DNA of 64,000 nt from Crossiella equi. Its GTDB lineage: Bacteria; Actinomycetota; Actinomycetes; Mycobacteriales; Pseudonocardiaceae. The DNA lies in assembly GCF_017876755.1 (NCBI RefSeq), contig NZ_JAGIOO010000001.1, positions 3,457,786 through 3,521,785 of the forward strand, read 5' to 3'. Below the pieces are notes generated by a model. That model saw only the letters and a list, made by a program, of their open reading frames with translations, did not search any database and had not been told where the DNA came from. Position numbers and translations under genes: made by a program. Of this stretch, positions 27,456 to 48,489 are shown in pieces. Each line of letters opens with the position of its first letter. Position 1 is the stretch's first letter.

Positions 27456-27529
27456 GCCCTCATAGCTCAGCTGGATAGAGCGAGAGACTTCTAATCTCTA
27501 GGTCGCAGGTTCGAGTCCTGCTGGGGGCG
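27456..27529 (+). tRNA. tRNA-Arg (anticodon TCT)
   Basis: A complete 74-base cloverleaf: 7-bp acceptor stem (GCCCTCA with TGGGGGC, one G-T pair), D-arm GCTC/GAGC, anticodon stem AGAGA/TCTCT with loop CTTCTAA giving anticodon TCT at 27490-27492, T-arm GCAGG-TTCGAGT-CCTGC, and discriminator G at 27529. CCA is not encoded. It reads AGA codons, which are rare at this G+C content. It lies 10 bases from the stop of a convergent gene. Confidence 0.97.
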
Positions 27530-27539
27530 CAACGGCTGG

Positions 27540-28311: not shown

Positions 28312-29877
28312 CTACCTCGGGTGCGGTACCCACGGCTCGACGACCTGCCAGCTCGCATCCTCTCTGAACATGTGCGGCCGGTCGAAGTCGAACTGGCCGC
28401 TGTCATTGGCCAGCCAGATCTCACCGCTCATGTGGCGGATGAAACGTCCCTTGAGGTTGGCGGCCTCCAGCGAGACCCCGGTGCCGGACAGCCCCTGGCG
28501 CGGGCAGAAAGTGGCATCGCCCCGGAAGGCATCTGTGGGCTCCTTGGCCGCGATGCGCACCCGGTACAGCTCGTGGCGCAGGTAGTAGTCCGGAATGTTC
28601 ACCGATTCGAAGGAGTAGCAGTTCGGGTCGGACAGGCCGGGCCGGACAGTCCAGGTGGCGTCCTGTTTGGCCAGGTCGGCGCTACCGCCGTGGACGTGGC
28701 TGATCCGGCCGACACCGTTCTCATGCCGGGCGAAGATCGAGCCGGACAAGCCAGGCGTTGTCACCTGGAGCGACTGGCGCAGTACATGCTCGTAGCCCTT
28801 GGTGAGGAAGCGGACCCGGTCATCCCGCGAACCGCGCAGTGCGGCATCGGTGGCCTTGAGCAGCTCCGGGTTCATCCCGCTGGCCTCAGCCCGACCCCTG
28901 ATGGCCACGATTCTGGCCCTGTTCTCACCATCGACCTGCGCCTTGTCTCTCTCGTCGTCCTTTCTTCTTGCTTCGTAGATCCCCGTTTCAATGAAGGCGC
29001 GCCAAACCTTCGGGTCGCCGTTGTTCAGCGCGATCTGGGCCTCCCCCGCTACCCAGCTGTCCTTGACCGCCCGGCGTCGGATTTCCCGGATGAAGTTGTC
29101 GTCGGAGAGATCGAGCATTTCATCCGGAATCTGCATTCCAGCAACCGAGGCAGCATTGGCCCTGGTATCACGGAGACGCTGCCTCTCCTTCGCCGCCTCG
29201 TTCTGCTGATGCTTCTGCTCCCGGTCACGCTCTTGATCGACAGCGAAGGCATCGACGATACCCTGACCAAGGAACTGTCGCTGCACGTCAAGGCTCGCAT
29301 CGATGACAGCCTCGGCCGCTTTCTTGACTTCCGCTCCTTCAGCGATGCGCCAGATCCGGATGACGAAATCACGGATACCGAACTCGAGCACGTCCGGGGT
29401 GACCGTGATCCGGAGTGTGGCGATAGCCCGGCGCTTGAGGTCGCGGTCGATGCGCGCCTGTGCCTCCTCACGGATCTGGTTGTCATCGTCGCGCTTCTTC
29501 GCGTCGAAGACACCGACCAGAATCAGCTCGGCGAACGCTGTCGAGGTGTTCTTCTGCAACGCTAGCTCGATGATCGCCCGAACCTCACGCCCCGTGGCCT
29601 TCTTCCACAGCTCCATGACGAAGTCGCGCTCGGCGAAGAGCAGGAGCTCCGACAGCTCACCTTCGGTGAAGCCAACCGCCTTCGCCGCACGGATCCTGTC
29701 CTGATCGGTGACTGCGACACCCCGAGCACCGCTGCCCACCTGACCGAAATTCGGCGACTGAACCGCATTAGCCGCAACGGCAGTCCCCCCAAGGAAACCA
29801 ACCACAAGAGCGACGGAAACGGTCGACCTGGCAACGCGAGCACATACAGACGCGTTTACAGAACGCGAGTAATTCAT
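28312..29877 (-). CDS. secreted ALF-repeat protein with C-terminal AbfB-type beta-trefoil
   Basis: A 521-residue exported protein. Residues 1-40 are a long Sec signal ending near AVAANAV. Residues 60-380 hold repeated helical units of the ALF type (for example ALNNGDPKVWRAFIETGIYE and SLDVQRQFLGQGIVDAFA), interspersed with charged helices. The last 130 residues resemble the AbfB beta-trefoil: NIPDYYLRHELYRVRI, DATFCPRQGLSG and NLKGRFIRHMSGEIWLAN match its DxxFxxRxGL and FLRH-type blocks. AbfB modules usually bind arabinose-containing glycans; no catalytic domain is attached. ATG 29877 has GGGGGGAAA about 7 bases upstream. It is divergent from the other two ALF genes and probably belongs with them. 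A wall-binding role is inference. Confidence 0.78.
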   Translation of the reverse strand: MNYSRSVNASVCARVARSTVSVALVVGFLGGTAVAANAVQSPNFGQVGSGARGVAVTDQDRIRAAKAVGFTEGELSELLLFAERDFVMELWKKATGREVRAIIELALQKNTSTAFAELILVGVFDAKKRDDDNQIREEAQARIDRDLKRRAIATLRITVTPDVLEFGIRDFVIRIWRIAEGAEVKKAAEAVIDASLDVQRQFLGQGIVDAFAVDQERDREQKHQQNEAAKERQRLRDTRANAASVAGMQIPDEMLDLSDDNFIREIRRRAVKDSWVAGEAQIALNNGDPKVWRAFIETGIYEARRKDDERDKAQVDGENRARIVAIRGRAEASGMNPELLKATDAALRGSRDDRVRFLTKGYEHVLRQSLQVTTPGLSGSIFARHENGVGRISHVHGGSADLAKQDATWTVRPGLSDPNCYSFESVNIPDYYLRHELYRVRIAAKEPTDAFRGDATFCPRQGLSGTGVSLEAANLKGRFIRHMSGEIWLANDSGQFDFDRPHMFREDASWQVVEPWVPHPR

Positions 29878-31286: not shown

Positions 31287-34200
31287 ATGCTGCGCGGATT
31301 CAGAACCACAGTGGTCACGACCATCCTGTGTGGACTGCTGGCTGGTGGAGCCGGACTGGCGGAGGCAAGTGCGGCCACACAGCACGAGATGAGGACGAGT
31401 GGGGCGCACGGTGAGCTGACAAGGCTGGTCACGGCCCGCCAGAACGCTTCGGCCGAGGAATCGTCCACTGATCCTGACCTCAGTCAGGACACCGACCGCA
31501 ACCTGGTCGCCGACATCGCGGAGATGCACGAGGACGTCGAGGTTCGGGAGGCAGCGCGCGCCGCGCTGGCCAGCGCGGACCCGAACGCGGTCATCAACTT
31601 CCTCGACCGCGAGATCGAGGGTGTCAAAGCCAAGGCGGCCAAGCGGAAGAAGGCCGAGGACGAGGCCAACCGCGCTGAGATCCAGAAGCTGGCTGGCACG
31701 GGCGGCCGCTGGCTGACGGAGGCGGTCGACCAGGCACTCGCAGGCACACCCCACGACCGGAAGAACTTCCTGTCGTGGGGCAAGGACATCGCGGTCCAGT
31801 GGGACGCCAAGGACGCCGAGGACGCAAGGGAGTGGGCCAGGCGGCGGCGCGACCAGGTAACGCTGGTGGCAGCGCACGGCGACCCCGAAGTGGCCAAAGC
31901 GGCTCAGGCCGCCTTGAACGCCGGTGCCAACGCCGCGATCGAGGAGTTCTTCAAGACCGGCTACCAAGCCGCCGCGCAGCGCGATGCCGAGGTGAACGAG
32001 GCCAGGGTGCGCGAGCAAGAGGAGCGCAACAAGGAGCTGGCGAAGCAGACCGACGAAGCACGACGGGCCGCCAAAGCCGCCGAGGCACGAAGAAACCTGG
32101 TCACAGCCCACGGCGACTCGGTCAGAGCACTGGCCGAGACCGCCAACGCCATGACCATGGCCTCCAACGCCGCGCGCGAAGCCGAGCGCATCCTGCAGGT
32201 AGGCAAGAGCGGCACCCTGCTGCCAGACGCCTATGACGGCGTACGGCATGAGGTGACCCGGCACACCGAGTGGGCACGCCGCAACGCCGAGAACGCCAAG
32301 GGGAGCGCTTCCCGGGCGAACCAGGAGGCCGCCCGGCTGGTCGAAGCCGGTCTGCCGCACGGTACCGACTGGGCACAGGTCGCCACCGCTCTGGCCAATG
32401 CGGCCGACGCCGCACACCGTGCTGCCCTGACCGCTCAGCACGCGGTGACCGCGATCATGGCGACTCAGGCAGCCAAAGACGCCCGGGCTAAAGCCGAGGC
32501 TCACGCTGAGCAGGCGACGAAGTGGCGGGAGTACGCGGAGCAGAGTGCCAATTCAGCCGTCGGCCTGGCACAGGCCGCCGGCGAACAGGCGAAGGCTGCC
32601 ACAAACGCCGCAGAGCGCACGCGCAAGGCCCGGGCCGACGCAGAGCGCGCCGAACAGAAGGCACAGGCCGCAGCCAAGCGCACTCGAGAGGCGCGACTGG
32701 TCGCCGATCGGGAAGCCCGGCAGGCCTCCGCCGAAAAGAGCCGTGCGGAACAGGAGCGACGCAACGCCAGCGGTGCACGTTCCCGAGCCGAGCAACAGGA
32801 GCGCGTCGCGGCTGCGGCCAGCAGCAACGCCCAAGGGTTGCGGGATCGAGCCCGAGAAGCGGAAGCCGCCGCCAAGAACCACGAGAACGGCGCGGCTTCG
32901 GCGCGCAAGGGAGCCGAGAGCGCCGAACAGCACAGGAATGTCGCGGAGGCCAGTGCCAAGTACTTGGAGGCAGCCGCGGCAGCGGCTGAGGGGAAACCCG
33001 GAGCGGAGAAAGCCCGTGCGGCAGCCACCCAGGCTCGCGGAGAGGCGAATACCGCGACCCAAGCCGCAAGCAGAGCGCGTGGAGCCGCCAACCAGGCCAC
33101 GGATGCCGCTGTGCGGTCCCGAGCAGCAGCCACCAGGGCAAGTGGAGCAGCTGCCCGAGCCTCTGCGGCGGCCGCGCTTGCGCAACGCGAAGCAGCAGTC
33201 ACACACCACCAGGCAAGGCTCGCGGAGGCCGCAGCAGCTGTCGCGACTGCCGAACAGCACAAGGCCACTGACGCTGCTGACGCGGCAGTGGCACTTTCCC
33301 AGCAGTCCGCCAACGAAGCACTGACATCGCTCCAAGCATCACATCAGACCCAGGAAGAGGCAGTCGCATCGGCTCTCGAAGCTGCGACAGCTGCTACGCA
33401 GGCCGGTCTTGCGGTTCGCGCGGCGAACTCGGCTCGTGATTCCGCCGCAGGCATCGCAGATCCAGCCAATGCCGCGACAACCACGGCAAGCCCGTTCAGC
33501 GACTCGGACATCAACGCGGACTTCGCCATCCTCGTCGCCAACCATGCGAAGGCCGTTGGTGCGGAACATGTGCAAGCCGCGCAGCACGCGGTCACGGAGG
33601 CCGATGCCGCCGCGGCCAAGGCGAAGGAGCTTGCGGAACGTGCCGCGCAGGAGGTTCCGCCAGCACTCCACGCCTCTGCCAAGGCAGCGCGGGCAGCAGC
33701 AGACGCCGCCAAGTCGGCTGCGACTGCCCAAGAGGCGGCAGCCCGGGCCGCTGAGGACGGACGAGCTGCGAGAGCGGCATCGGCCTCAGCGGCGAAAGCC
33801 GACAACGACGCGCGTGCGGACGCCAGAACTGCCCGCGGTGCCGCAGCCTCGGCACGCGCCGACGCAGCGATCGCTGGCCGGTCCGCCTCAGCAGCTGAGC
33901 GGGAAGCAACTGCGGCGCGCGGCGCTGCCTCCCGGGCAGAGGCAAGTGCGAACTCGGCACGCATCGCAGCAGACGAAGCGGAGACGGCGGCGAAGTCGGC
34001 GGAGCAGGCCGCCGCGAACGCGCGGGCGCACGCGGTCGCGGCGAACGACGCGGTGCAACGCGCGGAGAAGGCCGCCAGCGAATCAGCTCATCGTGATCAA
34101 GTACAGGACGGTGAGGACGTCACGTCGGAGTGGGTCAAGCGGAACTCCTCCAGGGCGACCGACGCCGATGAACTGCTCGCCGATCTCTGGGCGGCTCAGA

Positions 34201-34814
34201 CCAACACGGGAGCACCGTGGTGGCAGCCGCCCTACATGAAAGACGAGCAGGGAAACCCCATCTATCTCTGTTTCGGCCGCAAGGCGTGCGAAGAGGCCTA
34301 CAAGTACCTGCGACAGAATATGGGGGACGTGGCTGGAGCCAAGAACATCGCCGCCACCTACTGCCTCCAGAACTTCGAGGAGTGCGAGCAGGCTTCTGCG
34401 GTGGCGAATGGCGGACAGCTGATGCTCGCCCTCACTCCAATGGGAAGCGGTTTAGGCCCACTCCGGGCATTCCGGGCCGCCCAGGAGCAAGCCGCAGTCC
34501 TGCGCGCGAGCATCCCCATGGGCACCCGATGGCCCACTGTCACCACAGCCGCCTACGACCGGGTAACCAAGAAAATCTACTACGGCGTCAGCGGAAATCC
34601 GAATGTCTACGTGCATCCAGATCTGGCAAAAGTTCTCCCGAGCAAATCCCTGAAAAAATGGGCAGTCACAAACTGCGGCGAGGTTGAAGCCTGCTCGAAG
34701 GCCTTAAAAGACGGCGCGCTACTGGAAAACCTCGACGTTGTCAGCGTAACAACGAAGACTGGAGTACTGAAGCCACCCTGCGACAACTGCGCCCGCTGGT
34801 TGCCGAATCAGTAA
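31287..34814 (+). CDS. secreted polymorphic toxin: ALF repeats, Ala-rich stalk, C-terminal YwqJ-type deaminase
   Basis: A 1175-residue protein with the layout of a polymorphic toxin. Residues 1-29 are a Sec signal (LAEASA). ALF-type repeats occur at about 92-116, 147-180 and 209-233 (LNAGANAAIEEFFKTGYQAA). Residues 240-985 are extremely Ala-rich, with regular Arg/Glu/Lys, and probably form a long helical stalk. From about residue 1000 the composition changes, and the last 95 residues look like a deaminase: TAAYDRVTKKIYYGVSG, then CGE (Cys1130, Glu1132) and PPCDNC (Cys1165, Cys1168), the zinc ligands and catalytic Glu of the cytidine-deaminase fold in its YwqJ-like form. It would deaminate bases or nucleotides in a rival cell. 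A SUKH-3-type immunity gene follows at 56 bases. GGGGGGG precedes ATG 31287. Confidence 0.82.
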   Translation: MLRGFRTTVVTTILCGLLAGGAGLAEASAATQHEMRTSGAHGELTRLVTARQNASAEESSTDPDLSQDTDRNLVADIAEMHEDVEVREAARAALASADPNAVINFLDREIEGVKAKAAKRKKAEDEANRAEIQKLAGTGGRWLTEAVDQALAGTPHDRKNFLSWGKDIAVQWDAKDAEDAREWARRRRDQVTLVAAHGDPEVAKAAQAALNAGANAAIEEFFKTGYQAAAQRDAEVNEARVREQEERNKELAKQTDEARRAAKAAEARRNLVTAHGDSVRALAETANAMTMASNAAREAERILQVGKSGTLLPDAYDGVRHEVTRHTEWARRNAENAKGSASRANQEAARLVEAGLPHGTDWAQVATALANAADAAHRAALTAQHAVTAIMATQAAKDARAKAEAHAEQATKWREYAEQSANSAVGLAQAAGEQAKAATNAAERTRKARADAERAEQKAQAAAKRTREARLVADREARQASAEKSRAEQERRNASGARSRAEQQERVAAAASSNAQGLRDRAREAEAAAKNHENGAASARKGAESAEQHRNVAEASAKYLEAAAAAAEGKPGAEKARAAATQARGEANTATQAASRARGAANQATDAAVRSRAAATRASGAAARASAAAALAQREAAVTHHQARLAEAAAAVATAEQHKATDAADAAVALSQQSANEALTSLQASHQTQEEAVASALEAATAATQAGLAVRAANSARDSAAGIADPANAATTTASPFSDSDINADFAILVANHAKAVGAEHVQAAQHAVTEADAAAAKAKELAERAAQEVPPALHASAKAARAAADAAKSAATAQEAAARAAEDGRAARAASASAAKADNDARADARTARGAAASARADAAIAGRSASAAEREATAARGAASRAEASANSARIAADEAETAAKSAEQAAANARAHAVAANDAVQRAEKAASESAHRDQVQDGEDVTSEWVKRNSSRATDADELLADLWAAQTNTGAPWWQPPYMKDEQGNPIYLCFGRKACEEAYKYLRQNMGDVAGAKNIAATYCLQNFEECEQASAVANGGQLMLALTPMGSGLGPLRAFRAAQEQAAVLRASIPMGTRWPTVTTAAYDRVTKKIYYGVSGNPNVYVHPDLAKVLPSKSLKKWAVTNCGEVEACSKALKDGALLENLDVVSVTTKTGVLKPPCDNCARWLPNQ

Positions 34815-34870
34815 CCAGGCTTCGATGACATACGATAGACCCGAGGAACACGAACCTGACAGGAGGACAT

Positions 34871-35305
34871 GTGAACGAAAGACCCGCCATCGCCATGCTC
34901 AAGAAGGCGGGCTGGTTTCCAGGTCGGCGAGTCTCAGCAGAGCGGGATATTTCCGTCCTGCAGTCCGAGGGGTACTCCCTGTTTCCGAAGGCAGAGGAGT
35001 TTCTCGCGGAGTTCACCGGGTTGCGACTCGAAATCGAGAATGAATCCCAGGACGAGATATTTTTCTCCGCCGCCTACGTGTGCGAGTCCATGTTCTTCTT
35101 CGAATGGTCCGTCGAGTACTCTCAGCGCGCCGGGGTGCGCATGATTCCAGCAGGAGTAGCAGAGGAATACCTGACTCTGCTGGTCGGAGAAGACGGTCGC
35201 TGGTTCGGCGGCTTCGACGGGGAGTTCGGGCTGCTCGGAGACGACATCTTCGAAGCGATCGATTCGTTCGTTACCAACCCCAGCGATTTCAAGCAACGCC
35301 TGTAG
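34871..35305 (+). CDS. SUKH-3 family immunity protein
   Basis: A 144-residue acidic cytosolic protein. It opens with AGWFPGRRVSAERD, then a Leu-rich helix and EEFLAEFTGLRLEI, the order of conserved blocks in the SUKH-3 family. It continues with RMIPAGVAEEYLTLLVGEDG and WFGG, and ends with LLGDDIFEAIDSFV. SUKH proteins are the commonest immunity proteins of bacterial deaminase and nuclease toxins and bind their cognate toxin domain. Position immediately downstream of the deaminase tip, with AGGAGG 4 bases before GTG 34871, makes it the cognate antitoxin. Like the toxin tip, it is lower in G+C and less codon-biased than the genes outside the locus. Confidence 0.85.
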   Translation: MNERPAIAMLKKAGWFPGRRVSAERDISVLQSEGYSLFPKAEEFLAEFTGLRLEIENESQDEIFFSAAYVCESMFFFEWSVEYSQRAGVRMIPAGVAEEYLTLLVGEDGRWFGGFDGEFGLLGDDIFEAIDSFVTNPSDFKQRL

Positions 35306-38378: not shown

Positions 38379-38866
38379 TCCGCCTGCTGGGACTACTTGT
38401 CCCGGTCCTGACCGGTTCGGGGACTGCCGAGGTGGGCAGCACCGAACCCGTGGTGATCCGCGCGGAGCAGCCATGCCGCCAAGATCATCGCCCTGGGCGG
38501 ATCCTCGAGTTCGGACTCAGCCCGGCGGGCGCGGTGGCCTTCCTGGCCGAGTTTCCCGGCTGCGCGGCAAGGGCTCGCGCACCGCGTGCCGGCGCGCTGG
38601 GAACCGGTCGGCTGCCACGCCGGCGCGGAGGCCGACCTACCGGCGGTGAGCCCTCGCTGAGGAGTACCCCCAGTGACACTCCCCAGCGGGGCCCCGGCCG
38701 TTGTGGGCCTTGCAGGCCCGGCCGGAAACCTGGCAGGCCCTGCCTACCGCGTACACCCCCTTGCCCAGGTCGGAGGCGCGTCCGGGCTGGTCAACCGCAT
38801 AGCATGGGTTTTCCGGTCCGGATGTCCCACGCTGGGTGAAACGGGAGTGGCAGAGGGTTGACGGTC
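38379..38866. other. 488-bp stretch without a convincing gene
   Basis: No frame here has both a credible start and recognisable protein content. Around 38480-38640 the plus-strand frame reads ILEFGLSPAGAVAFLAEFP, faintly like the central part of an IS110-type transposase, with no start, no catalytic residues and no ends; I treat this as at most a decayed remnant. The rightmost 100 bases probably contain the promoter of the nSTAND gene. Confidence 0.5.
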
Positions 38867-41800
38867 GTGTCCGGGGCCCGCGCGGCCTTCGCCGAACGTT
38901 TCGCACTGCTCTACGCCGAGGCCGGTGACCCGCCGCTCAAGCGGGTCGCCGAGTCGGTGGCGCGGGCCCGCCGCACGGACGAGCGCGGCCGCCCGGTCCA
39001 GGTGACCACCCAGCGCATCAGCGACTGGCGGCGCGGGCGCAACGTGCCCGCGCGCTTCGCCGGGCTGGCCGTGGTGCTGGAGGTCCTCATCGGCGAGGCC
39101 CGCGCGCGCAAGCCCGCGCCCGCGCTGCCCGGCCTGTACGACCGCGAGGCCTGGCGGGTGCTGTGGACCGCCGCGCTGGCCGCCCCCGTCGAGTCCGAGG
39201 CCCCGCCCGAGGAGGCGCTCTGCCCGTACCGGGGCCTGGCCGCCTTCCAGCCCGAGGACTCGCCGCACTTCTTCGGCCGCGAACGCGCCACCGCCGCGCT
39301 GCTGGCCATGGTCCGGGCCAGCGACGGCATCTCCGTGCTGGTCGGCGCGTCCGGGGCGGGCAAGTCCTCGCTGCTGCGCGCCGGGCTGGTGCCCGCGCTG
39401 GCCCGGGACGAGCAGTACGCCGGGCTGCCGGTCACCGTGCTCACCCCCGGCGCCGACCCGGTGGCCGCGCTGGCGGCCCACCCCGCGCCGGAACGCCGCG
39501 TGCTGGTGGTCGACCAGTTCGAGGAGGTCTTCACCCTCTGCCCGGACGAGGCGGCGCGGCGGGAGTTCCTCGGCAGACTGGCCGAGGAGAGCACCAGCTC
39601 GGTGGTGGTGGCCGGACTGCGCGCCGACTTCTACGGCCGCTGCCTGGACCACCCGGAACTGGTCGAGGCCCTGCAGCACCGGCACCTGGTGCTCGGGCCG
39701 ATGAGCGCGGCCGAGCTGCGCGCCGCGGTCACCGCGCCCGCCCGCGCGGTCGGCCTGGCCCTGGAGACCGGCCTGGTCGAGCTGCTGCTGCGCGACCTGG
39801 GCGTCAGCGACCGGCGCGGCGGGACCCGGGGCGCGGAGCGGGACACCTACGACGCGGGCGCGCTGCCGCTGCTCGCGCACGCCCTGCTCGCCACCTGGCA
39901 GCACCGCCAGGGCGGGCGGCTCACCGTGGCCGGGTACCGCACCGCGGGCGGCATCCAGGGCGCGGTCGCGGCCACCGCCGAACGCGCCTGGGCCGAGCTG
40001 GACGCGGCCGGGCAGGCCGCCGCACGGCCGCTGCTGCTGCGGCTGGTGCGCATCGGCGAGGACTCCGAGGACACCCGCCGCCGCGCCGGGCGCGAGGAGC
40101 TCATCGAGAACGCCGCCGACCCCTCCGCCACCGAGGCCGCGCTGGAGACCCTGGCCGCGGCCAGGCTGGTCACCCTGGACGCGGACTCGGTGGAGATCAC
40201 GCACGAGGCGCTGCTCAAGGCCTGGCCCCGGCTGTCCGGCTGGCTGGACGCCGACCGCGCCGGGCACCTGACCCGGCAGCGCCTGGAGGAGGACGCCAAG
40301 GCCTGGGCGGACCAGCACGAGGACGCCTCGCTGCTCTACCGGGGCGCCCGCCTGGAGACCACCCGCGCGGCCGCCGCCAGCGGTGGGCCCAGCGAGCTCG
40401 CGCGGCGGTTCCTGGCCACCTCGGTGCGCCAGTGGCGGCGCTCGGTGTGGCTGCGCCGGGGCGCGGTGGCACTGGTGTGCGTGTTCGCGCTGGTCGTCTC
40501 GATCGCCGCGGTGGTCGTGGTCCGGCAGCGGGACGAGGCGCAGTTCCGCCAGGTGCTGGCCGAGGCCGACCGCTCGCTGACCACCGACACCTCGCTGTCC
40601 GCGCAGCTCACCCTGGTCGCGGCGGACCTGCGCCCGGACGATGAGGAGGTGCGGTCCCGGCTGCTGGCCACCCAGCAGCTGCCCCTGGCCACCAGCCTCA
40701 CCGGGCACCGGGGCGCGGTCTACCTGACCACGTTCAGCCCGGACGGCACGGTGCTGGCCACCGCGGGCGCCGACCACACCGCCCGACTGTGGGACGTGCG
40801 CGACCGCGCCAGCCCGAAGCCGTACGGGCCGCCGCTGACCGGCCACACGGACTGGCTCAGCTCGGCGGTGTTCAGCCCGGACGGCCGGATCCTGGCCACC
40901 ACCGGCGCGGATGACACGATCCGGCTCTGGGACGTCCGCGACCCGGCCGCGCCCAAGCCGCTGGGCGAGCCGCTGGACACCGGCGGCGGCACCGCCTACC
41001 TGCTGGCCTTCAGCCCGGACGGCACGCTGCTGGCCGCCGCGAACGAGGACCGCACGGCCGCGCTGTGGCGCCTGGCCGACCCGGCCCGGCCGGTGCGCGC
41101 GGGCACCGTCACCGGGCACACCGGACAGGTGCGCTCGGTGGCGTTCAGCCCGGACGGCAGGCTGCTGGCCACCGGCGCGGACGACGCCACGGTCCGGCTC
41201 TCCGACGTGCGCGACCCGGCCGCGCCGAAGCCGGTGGGCGCCCCGCTGACCGGACACCTGGCCGGGCTGCACTCGGTGGCGTTCAACCGGGACGGCACGC
41301 TGCTGGCCACCGGCGGCGAGGACAAGGTGGTCCGGCTGTGGGACCTGCGCGACCCCGCCCGCGTGGTGCCCGCCGGGCCGCCCGTGCTCGGGCACTCCGC
41401 TCCGGTGTGGTCGGTGGTGTTCAGCCCGGTGCTGCCGGTGCTCGCCTCGGCCGCCGCGGACGGCACCACGCGCCTGTGGAACACCAGCGAGCCGGCCGGG
41501 GTGATGCCGCTCGGGCCGCCGCTGGCCGCGCGCAACAGCAAGGTCTACGCGGCCGGGTTCAGCCCGGACGGCCTCGCCCTGGCCGTCGGCGGGGAGGACA
41601 GCGAGGCGCAGCTGTGGCGCCTTCCGCCCGCACTGGTCGGGCACTCGGTGTCGGTGTCCCGGCCCGCCTTCCGCCCGGACGGCCGGGTCCTGGCCACCGG
41701 CGGCGGCGACCGCGCGATCCGGCTGTGGCACCTGGCCGACCCAGCCCGCCCGCGCCTGGCCTCGGTGGTCGAGGGGGCGCACACCGAGGGCGTGGGCTGG

Positions 41801-42667
41801 ACCGCGTTCCGCCCGGACGGCAAAGTGCTCGCCTCGGCCTCGGCCGACCGCACGGTGCGGCTGTGGGACGTCGCCGACGCCGAACGCCCGCGCGCGCTGG
41901 GCGCCCCGATCACCGGCGGCCAGCGGTACTCGCTGCCGGTGCGCTTCAGCCCGGACGGCACGCTGCTGGCGATGGCCGTGGACCGGGACTCCTTCCAGCT
42001 CCTCGACGTGCGCGACCCGGCCCGCCCGGTCCCGCTGGGCACCCCGGTGCAGGCGCACGCGAACCTGGTGAACACGCTGGTGTTCAGCCGGGACGGCCGC
42101 ATCCTGTACACCGGCAGCGACGACTACACGCTCAAGGTCTGGGACCTCACCGACCCGGCGCGGCCGGTACCGGTGGGTGGCCCGCTGACCGGCCACACCG
42201 GCCCGGTGCGCGCGGCCGAGCTGAGCCCGGACGGCGGGCTGCTGGCCACCGGGGCCGGGGACAGCGGGATCCGGCTGTGGGACCTCACCGACCCGCGCGC
42301 GCCGAAGTCCACGCGTGAGCTGACCGGCCACACCGAGAGCGTCGACCAGGTGGCCTTCGCCCCGGACGGCGCGACCCTGGTCAGCGGCAGCGCGGACCAC
42401 ACCGTGCGCCGGTGGGCCCTGCCCTCGGGCACCCCGGTGGGCCCGCCGGTGACCACCACGCTCGGCGCCTGGTGGAGCAGCCCCTCCTACCACCCGTCCG
42501 GCCGCCACCTGGTCACCGCGGGCTCGGACAACACGGTCCGCACCTGGGACCTGGACCTCGCGGCGGCCCGCACCCGGGTCTGCTCGGCCACCCGGGGCGC
42601 GCTGGACGAGGCGACGTGGCGGGAACACCTGCCGCAACTGGACTTCCAGCCGCCGTGTGACGGCTAA
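38867..42667 (+). CDS. HTH-nSTAND1 NTPase with transmembrane segment and 14 WD40 repeats
   Basis: A 1266-residue signalling protein. An N-terminal HTH-like domain (QRISDWRRGRNVPARF) is followed by an nSTAND1 NTPase: YRGLAAFQPEDSPHFFGRE, Walker A GASGAGKSSLL (Lys166), Walker B VLVVDQFEEVFT, then a winged-helix region (VEITHEALLKAWPRL). A single membrane segment lies at about residues 532-555 (VALVCVFALVVSIAAVVVV). From about residue 605 there are 14 WD40 units, mostly of the form FSPDG..LATG..D.TVRLWDV, enough for two seven-bladed propellers. The propellers would lie outside the membrane if the HTH and NTPase are inside. STAND proteins switch on ligand binding; related proteins occur in signalling and phage defence. 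TTG 38858 is also open, but GTG 38867 has GAGGG at better spacing. Confidence 0.9.
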   Translation: MSGARAAFAERFALLYAEAGDPPLKRVAESVARARRTDERGRPVQVTTQRISDWRRGRNVPARFAGLAVVLEVLIGEARARKPAPALPGLYDREAWRVLWTAALAAPVESEAPPEEALCPYRGLAAFQPEDSPHFFGRERATAALLAMVRASDGISVLVGASGAGKSSLLRAGLVPALARDEQYAGLPVTVLTPGADPVAALAAHPAPERRVLVVDQFEEVFTLCPDEAARREFLGRLAEESTSSVVVAGLRADFYGRCLDHPELVEALQHRHLVLGPMSAAELRAAVTAPARAVGLALETGLVELLLRDLGVSDRRGGTRGAERDTYDAGALPLLAHALLATWQHRQGGRLTVAGYRTAGGIQGAVAATAERAWAELDAAGQAAARPLLLRLVRIGEDSEDTRRRAGREELIENAADPSATEAALETLAAARLVTLDADSVEITHEALLKAWPRLSGWLDADRAGHLTRQRLEEDAKAWADQHEDASLLYRGARLETTRAAAASGGPSELARRFLATSVRQWRRSVWLRRGAVALVCVFALVVSIAAVVVVRQRDEAQFRQVLAEADRSLTTDTSLSAQLTLVAADLRPDDEEVRSRLLATQQLPLATSLTGHRGAVYLTTFSPDGTVLATAGADHTARLWDVRDRASPKPYGPPLTGHTDWLSSAVFSPDGRILATTGADDTIRLWDVRDPAAPKPLGEPLDTGGGTAYLLAFSPDGTLLAAANEDRTAALWRLADPARPVRAGTVTGHTGQVRSVAFSPDGRLLATGADDATVRLSDVRDPAAPKPVGAPLTGHLAGLHSVAFNRDGTLLATGGEDKVVRLWDLRDPARVVPAGPPVLGHSAPVWSVVFSPVLPVLASAAADGTTRLWNTSEPAGVMPLGPPLAARNSKVYAAGFSPDGLALAVGGEDSEAQLWRLPPALVGHSVSVSRPAFRPDGRVLATGGGDRAIRLWHLADPARPRLASVVEGAHTEGVGWTAFRPDGKVLASASADRTVRLWDVADAERPRALGAPITGGQRYSLPVRFSPDGTLLAMAVDRDSFQLLDVRDPARPVPLGTPVQAHANLVNTLVFSRDGRILYTGSDDYTLKVWDLTDPARPVPVGGPLTGHTGPVRAAELSPDGGLLATGAGDSGIRLWDLTDPRAPKSTRELTGHTESVDQVAFAPDGATLVSGSADHTVRRWALPSGTPVGPPVTTTLGAWWSSPSYHPSGRHLVTAGSDNTVRTWDLDLAAARTRVCSATRGALDEATWREHLPQLDFQPPCDG

Positions 42668-47745: not shown

Positions 47746-48489
47746 ATGAAGATCCGTCACCTCGCGGCGTCCCTGTTCGTCGCGGCGGCCACCGTGCTGT
47801 CCGGCCTCGGCGGGGCCGCCTCGGCCGCGCCCGTGCCCACCGACGACGTGTCGCCGCTCATCGTCGGCGGCGGCAACGCCACGCAGACCTACTCGTTCAT
47901 GGTGTCCCTGGACACCGGCTGCGGTGGCTCGCTGATCAAGCCCACCTGGGTGGTGACCGCCCGGCACTGCACCGACTCCAGCCCCCGCCAGGTGCGCGTG
48001 GGCTCGGTGTACCGCAACTCCGGCGGGGTCACCGCGTCCGTGCGGCGCGTGGTCCGGCACTCCTCGGCCGACCTCGCGCTGCTGGAGCTGTCCACCCCGG
48101 TGAACCTGGCGACCGTTCCGGTGGCCGCCTCCTCCGGCGCCGTGGGCACCGCCACCCGCATCATCGGCTGGGGCGCGACCAACGCCAGCGGCTCCGGTGC
48201 GGCGACCTACCTCAAGGAGCTCAACACCTCGATCGTCGCGGACAACCGCTGCACCAACGGCATGAACGCCGCGGCCGAGATCTGCACCAACAACCCCGGT
48301 GGCAACCAGGGTGCCTGCTACGGCGACTCCGGCGGCCCGCAGGTGAAGGTCGTCAACGGCGCCTGGCAGCTCGTGGGCGCCACCAGCCGCTCCGGCAACG
48401 GTGACCCGCGCTGCGCCACCGGCCCGTCGATCTACGTCGACGTGCCGTACTTCCGCAGCTGGATCAGCCAGTACGCGGGCACGGTCTGA
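47746..48489 (+). CDS. secreted trypsin-like serine protease (S1)
   Basis: A 247-residue exported protease. Residues 1-28 are a Sec signal (LSGLGGAASA, cleavage before APV), followed by a short propeptide and the mature start IVGGGNAT. The catalytic triad is His74 (VVTARHC, with Arg where Ala is usual), Asp109 (SADLALLEL) and Ser195 (CYGDSGGP). Cys pairs typical of Streptomyces trypsins are present. The specificity pocket residue six before the Ser is Asn/Gly rather than Asp (NPGGNQGACYGDSGG), so trypsin-like cleavage after Lys/Arg is not certain. GGAGG lies about 7 bases before ATG 47746. A terminator hairpin follows directly. Confidence 0.95.
   Translation: MKIRHLAASLFVAAATVLSGLGGAASAAPVPTDDVSPLIVGGGNATQTYSFMVSLDTGCGGSLIKPTWVVTARHCTDSSPRQVRVGSVYRNSGGVTASVRRVVRHSSADLALLELSTPVNLATVPVAASSGAVGTATRIIGWGATNASGSGAATYLKELNTSIVADNRCTNGMNAAAEICTNNPGGNQGACYGDSGGPQVKVVNGAWQLVGATSRSGNGDPRCATGPSIYVDVPYFRSWISQYAGTV

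Follow-up and report, generated by a model that had tools for sequence, protein, structure and literature searches.

Umbrella toxin particles, described in Streptomyces in 2024 (PMC11062931), are the closest known relatives of the system considered here. Their toxin protein, UmbC, is reported to consist of ALF repeats, a coiled-coil stalk of approximately 300 Å and a toxin tip, whereas UmbB binds the ALF repeats and joins them to UmbA, which possesses a trypsin-like domain and a lectin (PMC11062931, PMC13274773). ALF repeats had already been named among toxin stalks in a 2012 survey (PMC3482391). The genome survey within the 2024 paper demanded UmbB within ten genes of UmbC (PMC11062931), and a 2025 survey excluded UmbC proteins without eight ALF repeats (PMC13274773). 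Here, we have analyzed a 64-kb window (the whole stretch of DNA under study, positions 3457786-3521785) of the 9.44-Mb single contig of Crossiella equi (assembly GCF_017876755.1, contig NZ_JAGIOO010000001.1), which contains a locus for three ALF proteins, one of them with a deaminase-type toxin tip, and for a SUKH-3 immunity protein. This locus falls outside both published umbrella surveys because these required a nearby UmbB or eight ALF repeats. By the sequence features tested it does not qualify as an umbrella locus in the published sense, and it appears to function like one; we read it, with a probability of about 0.6, as encoding a secreted three-protein ALF-class toxin, an umbrella relative built differently.

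The three proteins are designated P1 (the 1175-amino acid toxin carrier), P3 (a 361-amino acid ALF protein) and P4 (a protein with ALF repeats and a C-terminal AbfB domain). The P1 open reading frame (ORF; 31287-34814 of the window, plus strand) is followed after 56 bases by an ORF with a GTG start that encodes 144 amino acids (34871-35305, plus strand). The P3 gene (30153-31238, plus strand) ends 48 bases ahead of P1, and the P4 gene (28312-29982, minus strand), which encodes 556 amino acids from its first start codon and 521 from a likelier start at 29877, is divergent from both. An initial annotation of this DNA had viewed P1 as a Sec-delivered interbacterial stalk toxin accompanied by its immunity protein. 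Its two ORFs, the three ALF repeats, the CGE and PPCDNC motifs and the SUKH-3 gene 56 bases downstream were all borne out, and the toxin/SUKH-3 pair stands, but that view omits the two further ALF genes upstream, with which P1 makes up a conserved three-gene unit.

ALF repeats are detected in all three proteins. In P1 they occupy residues 74-107, 132-169 and 191-229 (31506-31973, plus strand) according to our own profile, which finds none further in the full-length protein; Pfam assigns ALF to the first 304 residues at 60.3 bits (cut-off 25.4), and no Pfam family matched when full-length P1 was scanned in one piece. P3 scores 25.2 bits against Pfam ALF, marginally under the same cut-off, and our profile recognizes two repeats in the window protein and three in 19 of 26 family members. 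Window P4 has three repeats by our profile (Pfam ALF, 56.4 bits) within the stretch used as query for the family search (28738-29697, minus strand), followed by the AbfB domain (137.6 bits; residues 373-512 of the 521-amino acid form; 28342-28761, minus strand), which is the proposed receptor-binding part. Across 30 members of the P4 family, ALF was found in 27, AbfB in 25, LGFP in 20 and a ricin-type lectin in 11. AbfB is known to bind arabinofuranose. This domain also appears to serve umbrella-type binders in the source organism, as judged from a locus near 6.95 Mb (L198, 6950000-6964000), where a run of UmbA-type trypsin matches includes four that are followed by AbfB on the same strand, within ORFs of approximately 535-562 amino acids beside an UmbB match.

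The genome search scores few candidates per genome, so the counts of genomes are lower bounds. Most of the loci compared were picked by P3 or P1 matches, P4 being the independent member there. P3 was found in at least 16 of 200 related genomes. The N-terminal half of P1 was present in at least 22 at E 0.001, and its strong matches (<1e-40) fell in 16 genomes, the same 16 that have P3; the best match in the six further genomes was E 2.4e-7 or weaker, and these are probably 8-ALF carriers. P4, searched by its ALF part, occurred in at least 20 genomes, including all 16 with P3 and P1. Within 15 kb, 24 of 28 strong P1 matches have P3, 24 of 28 P3 matches have P1, and 27 of 36 P4 matches (E 1.2e-20 or better) have P1. 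Complete trios were recovered at 27 of the 39 loci compared (the window, L114, L116, L123-L142 and L190-L193), 23 of them in the window's family and four (L190-L193) in a genus taken for Streptomyces. Among the 12 incomplete loci, L115, L117 and L118 are truncated by the end of a contig, a single gene is present at L113, L119 and L120, L121 has P1 alone (a contig end on one side, and no P3 or P4 within 10 kb on the other), and L122, with its UmbA and UmbB matches, is an 8-ALF locus rather than a trio. In 27/27 trios P3 lies ahead of P1 with both genes on one strand. P4 stands divergently ahead of P3 in 13 trios; in the other 14 it points the same way and is placed before, between or behind its two partners. 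Beyond the window's family, P3 was detected strongly at four loci in three of 394 genomes of the class, together with three weak matches, and only by three weak matches among 198 genomes of the phylum, both again lower bounds; neither P3 nor P1 was found in the plasmids searched.

The three members of a trio also vary together. Over 23 trios, the correlation of pairwise distances is 0.92 for P3-P1, 0.91 for P3-P4 and 0.84 for P1-P4, values that none of 5000 permutations reached. When labels were exchanged only within each of four genomes, the observed value was reached by 2, 2 and 1 of 432 arrangements, the true one included. These data bear on another explanation, in which P1 acts alone on its stalk and P3 and P4, two distinct secreted wall binders, are no more than neighbours of the toxin gene. 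Such a view would fit the nine P4 matches, out of 36, that have no P1 or P3 nearby, as well as the general character of AbfB and LGFP as carbohydrate or wall domains; on the other hand, the identical P3 and P1 genome sets, the order kept in 27/27 trios, the co-variation within genomes and the ALF repeats in all three proteins argue against it, and we consider it improbable. Two further observations concern P4 itself: at some trio loci (L136, L133) there are at least three P4 matches, so that binding subunits might be mixed, and at L045, L199, L200 and L201 P4 is found alone with no P3 or P1 nearby, resembling the orphan umbA genes of S. coelicolor.

The published umbrella partners were searched for at the same loci. 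No UmbB match was obtained at any of the 27 trio loci, including the 64-kb window, with two UmbB queries of our own, which a very divergent UmbB could escape. As for UmbA, the window has only a plain trypsin-like gene (47746-48489) 12 kb away, with no second domain. The source genome has five 8-ALF UmbC genes elsewhere, at 0.66, 1.04, 1.12, 1.69 and 9.14 Mb (L039, L040, L041, L042 and L046), each with eight repeats; an UmbB match lies near three of the five, and P3 or P4 near none. These five UmbC proteins have five different C-terminal tips.

Several results weigh against a separate three-protein toxin and have to be set beside the evidence above. The two-query basis of the UmbB search is one of them. 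UmbB is made at other loci of the source genome (UmbB-like genes at L039, L040, L041 and L198), and among the other 26 trio loci UmbA-like genes occur only at L137, where two lie a few kb off. Both would suit the idea that P1 is a reduced UmbC which borrows UmbB and UmbA encoded elsewhere in its genome and to which P3 and P4 are accessory, and it is reported that UmbA from distant loci join all particles in S. coelicolor (PMC11062931). In the same published work, however, UmbB is specific for its own UmbC (PMC11062931), and borrowing is further opposed by the lack of any UmbB match (two queries) at all 27 trio loci, by the constant association of P1 with P3 at the genome level and by P4, which already combines ALF with binding domains; we therefore hold it to be unlikely, only a little less so than mere adjacency of the genes. 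In addition, apart from the nine P4 matches already mentioned, 4 of 28 P3 and 4 of 28 P1 matches are partnerless within 15 kb, some of them at contig ends, and joint transfer of linked genes could also cause the co-variation. The 3 + 3 + 3 or 4 ALF repeats of a trio give no obvious sum to the eight of the umbrella ring. A solved-structure search with the P3 profile returned no umbrella structure, its matches (best E 2.5e-4) being to a ferritin, a synthetic binder and designed helical proteins; the same search with the ALF part of P1 gave no match. Finally, the last 136 residues of P1 score 19.5 bits against the YwqJ-type deaminase family PF14431, under the gathering cut-off of 25.9, and ten tips related to that of P1, when compared without it, match the YwqJ profile weakly (37.6%, E 3.4e-4). 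With these points taken into account, the three-protein reading remains our preferred one, and we lean slightly towards a broader proposal, namely that the trio is a second ALF-toxin particle architecture beside the umbrella, with a crown of three separately encoded ALF proteins (stalk-toxin, scaffold and lectin) and without UmbA or UmbB, each trio being cognate and co-evolving so that one cell could run several separate particles.

The carrier part of P1 had been thought little studied in the initial annotation; this was not borne out, since its plan is the one reported for UmbC (PMC11062931, PMC13274773), of which P1 is a relative. Likewise, a helix of approximately 745 alanine-rich residues had been proposed, and an alanine-rich stalk is indeed present, but it consists of several segments, including a linker, a heptad-type coil with a register break and a proline-containing hinge. 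In the coil, alanine recurs every 3.5 residues with a phase of approximately 0.5-0.7 in windows up to residues 513-561 and of 2.1-2.5 from residue 555, with a weak signal between, which indicates a single register break near residues 545-560. The segments can be described as helix A (residues ~357-548, ends approximate; 32355-32930; phase ~0.5), helix B beyond the break (~555-723; 32949-33455; phase ~2.2-2.5), the hinge (724-741; 33456-33509) and helix C, which shows alanine periodicity (~741-945; 33507-34121), all on the plus strand. Extra residues in P1 homologues cluster after positions 503, 561, 586 and 948, and the proline hinge recurs among them. The simplest reading is that the stalk forms a hairpin turning near residue 550, followed by the hinge and by a third helix to approximately residue 945, which may fold back; helices of approximately 188, 170 and 205 residues would span 26-31 nm if fully helical. 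As a control, the five UmbC proteins of the same genome all have a 375-residue coil between ALF4 and ALF5, in which the phase shift is gradual; this agrees with the reading of P1 but is less sharp. A relation between hairpin length and helix C length was also considered, but with r 0.13 for an alanine-defined end and 0.88 from proline to proline (n = 11 related sequences each) it is suggestive at best and was not used.

It might be supposed that P1 is simply a degenerate remnant of an eight-ALF UmbC, as it has only three ALF repeats and a broken relative exists near 2.24 Mb of the source genome (L043). However, exactly three repeats are found in 26/27 members of the P1 family (full-length frames), the 27th being a fragment, and the recurring hinge and long open frames complete a pattern by which this explanation is largely refuted; we give it very little weight. 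At L043, the P1-type gene is fragmented and lies next to transposase-like ORFs; small remnant ORFs follow it.

The tips of P1-type carriers are exchanged, as expected for the polymorphic toxin that had been claimed. In a comparison of window P1 with its counterpart at L123 in the same genus, made in blocks of 50 residues, 15 of the 19 blocks that reach to residue 950 show identities of 0.64-0.88. The other four are 1-50 (0.48), 501-600 (0.48 and 0.40) and 901-950 (0.40), and the five blocks beyond residue 950 drop to 0.16-0.32. Moreover, unrelated tips are borne on the same type of stalk: in a Pfam survey of 22 P1 proteins at E 0.001, we found five non-specific endonucleases, four PT-HINT domains, two XOO_2897 deaminases, one TNT, one PLA2-type domain and others, with no tip match for window P1. 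Ahead of the window tip lies a Cys-containing pre-toxin segment (CFGRxxC ... TYC ... C; 34266-34412, plus strand) without a Pfam match, which also precedes other tips in four other genomes (G066, G034, G022 and G019; L047, L048, L049 and L050), and a fragment of which occurs at 6.03 Mb of the source genome (L044).

The tip itself (34404-34811, plus strand) carries the motifs CGE (residues 1130-1132; 34674-34682) and PPCDNC (residues 1163-1168; 34773-34790), which fit the [HC]xE and CxxC zinc and catalytic motifs and from which a YwqJ-type deaminase had been proposed. A search of the whole source genome gave no PF14431 match at E 0.001, and a contig scan with the single window sequence found no relative, whereas an alignment-based scan found 10 loci. 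Tip homologues besides the window were found at L051 of genome G061, and at L202-L211 in Streptomyces and one Actinoplanes; L205 seems to coincide with L194 of genome G314. All 11 of these form the C-termini of long frames, with, by eye, RHS- or HINT-type sequence ahead of the tip. The 11 aligned tips (window and L202-L211) share invariant CxE and CxNC motifs, and seven of them match PF14431 at E 0.1 or better (best 1.7e-4); the L051 tip scores 26.3 bits against this family, just over the cut-off, and the L194 tip 12.4 bits, under it. For profile-profile comparison, 29 YwqJ domains were taken from 33 matches in related genomes. The window tip alone matched them at 93.8% (E 1.7e-7, 94 columns) and all 11 tips at 89.9% (E 1.7e-6), while the reversed profile, five column shuffles, a SUKH set and a nuclease set used as controls for the 11-tip profile gave 0.05-0.40%; two XOO_2897 deaminase tips matched it at 54%. 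A solved-structure search with the tip profile yielded no deaminase of known structure and chance matches only. On the strength of the motifs and of the profile match with clean controls, the proposal is supported despite the sub-cut-off Pfam score, and the tip is predicted to be a remote YwqJ-type deaminase. Two candidates were set aside: G357/L195, a possible tip homologue (E 7.8e-4), is antisense to a longer helicase-like ORF by eye, and weak matches of the zinc-finger model Znf_XAF1_N to nine of 11 tips (best E 0.024) were taken as reflecting the CxNC motif.

What such a tip would act on is a separate question, on which published examples differ. Bacillus subtilis YwqJ is reported to cause growth arrest with no effect seen on chromosome or rRNA, and its authors suggest small molecules (PMC8321402). 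These data favour a reading compatible with the three-protein toxin, according to which the tip is deaminase-like but no nucleic-acid mutator, and either has nucleotides or some other small molecule as its substrate or lacks activity. The UmbC1 tip of S. coelicolor, a predicted cytosine deaminase, points the other way, as it is reported to cause C to T mutations in DNA (PMC11062931), though as far as we can tell it belongs to a different sequence family from the window tip. We regard the non-mutator reading as possible, at somewhat less than even odds.

The assignment of the 144-amino acid product as the SUKH-3 partner of the tip was likewise supported. It matches SUKH-3 (PF14433) over residues 6-135 at 67 bits (cut-off 23), and in 11/11 non-window loci the tip is immediately followed by a SUKH-3-like gene. 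Two of these neighbours, at L051 and L194, were checked by Pfam (33.1 and 33.9 bits, respectively, with the same cut-off), and the remaining ones were assigned by tblastn similarity to a Pfam-checked one (E 6e-32 or better). The window SUKH-3 protein shows no meaningful BLAST similarity to these neighbours, and profile alignment gives 44% (E 2.4e-4). The G+C content is 0.587 for the toxin tip and 0.579 for the SUKH-3 gene, compared with 0.693 for the ALF and stalk part of P1 and 0.719 for the window. By these features, tip and SUKH-3 gene look like a travelling cassette.

If the three-protein reading is correct, the toxin could work as follows. In P1, a stalk built from a helical hairpin and a third helix would hold the toxin at its end, and the three ALF repeats would form part of a crown. 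P3 would add further ALF repeats to this crown as a separate protein, in place of ALF5-8 of UmbC, and P4 would join it through its own ALF repeats, its AbfB domain binding a surface sugar of the target; P4 would thus stand in for both the lectin UmbA and the adaptor UmbB. Once the target is bound, the YwqJ-type tip would enter a competing bacterium and deaminate a base, in nucleic acid or in a free nucleotide, while the SUKH-3 protein would shield the producer. Should the trio form a particle, there would be a second way of apportioning toxin, crown and receptor-binder to different proteins, and the trio would offer a system without a separate adaptor for studying how a stalk delivers its tip. 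It would also add AbfB and LGFP binders to the ALF-toxin repertoire; such binders may target arabinose-containing walls.

Two other features of the surrounding DNA may be noted. A tRNA-Arg (tct) gene at 27456-27530, approximately 0.8 kb from the P4 gene, is a possible island insertion site, and a 1269-amino acid ORF at 38858-42667 has, by eye, an N-terminal DNA-binding-like domain with an NTPase and C-terminal WD-type repeats.

Our literature search found no paper on an ALF repeat together with AbfB, the relevant publications being the two umbrella papers and the 2012 survey; it covered sources other than subscription papers, preprints and the umbrella supplements, so the design may be in print elsewhere. 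Four known systems allow comparison. SUKH-3 proteins (PF14433) resemble the immunity protein in their Pfam match and in their position directly behind a toxin gene. RHS- and HINT-type polymorphic toxins (L202-L211 and L051) share a homologous tip and a SUKH-3-like neighbour with the window locus but have, by eye, an RHS or HINT carrier instead of an ALF stalk. YwqJ-like deaminases (PF14431), such as that of B. subtilis, are alike in their CxE and CxxC motifs in the same order, in the full-domain profile match and in the polymorphic toxin context, and differ in that the window tip is under the Pfam cut-off and is carried on an ALF stalk rather than on an LXG carrier. The umbrella particles of Streptomyces (UmbA, UmbB, UmbC and UmbD) are the nearest: here, as far as genes alone can tell, the ALF repeats, the long alanine-rich coiled-coil stalk, the exchangeable C-terminal toxin and the downstream immunity gene all recur, as do separate binding subunits with variable lectin-like domains and lone binder genes elsewhere in the genome. 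If fully helical, the P1 helices would be close in length to the published umbrella stalk. The umbrella toxin protein has a Tat signal; for P1, the signal peptide was judged by eye, and a crude script places an RR pair just ahead of the hydrophobic stretch in 11/27 family members but not in the window protein, so P1 may use either Tat or Sec, the route named in the initial annotation. Among the differences, P1 has three ALF repeats as opposed to eight, and only a hinge at the place where UmbC has ALF5-8 in the same chain, the trio having the separate ALF protein P3 instead. In addition, P4 fuses ALF directly to AbfB, LGFP or ricin-type domains, whereas the umbrella uses UmbB together with a trypsin-like UmbA.

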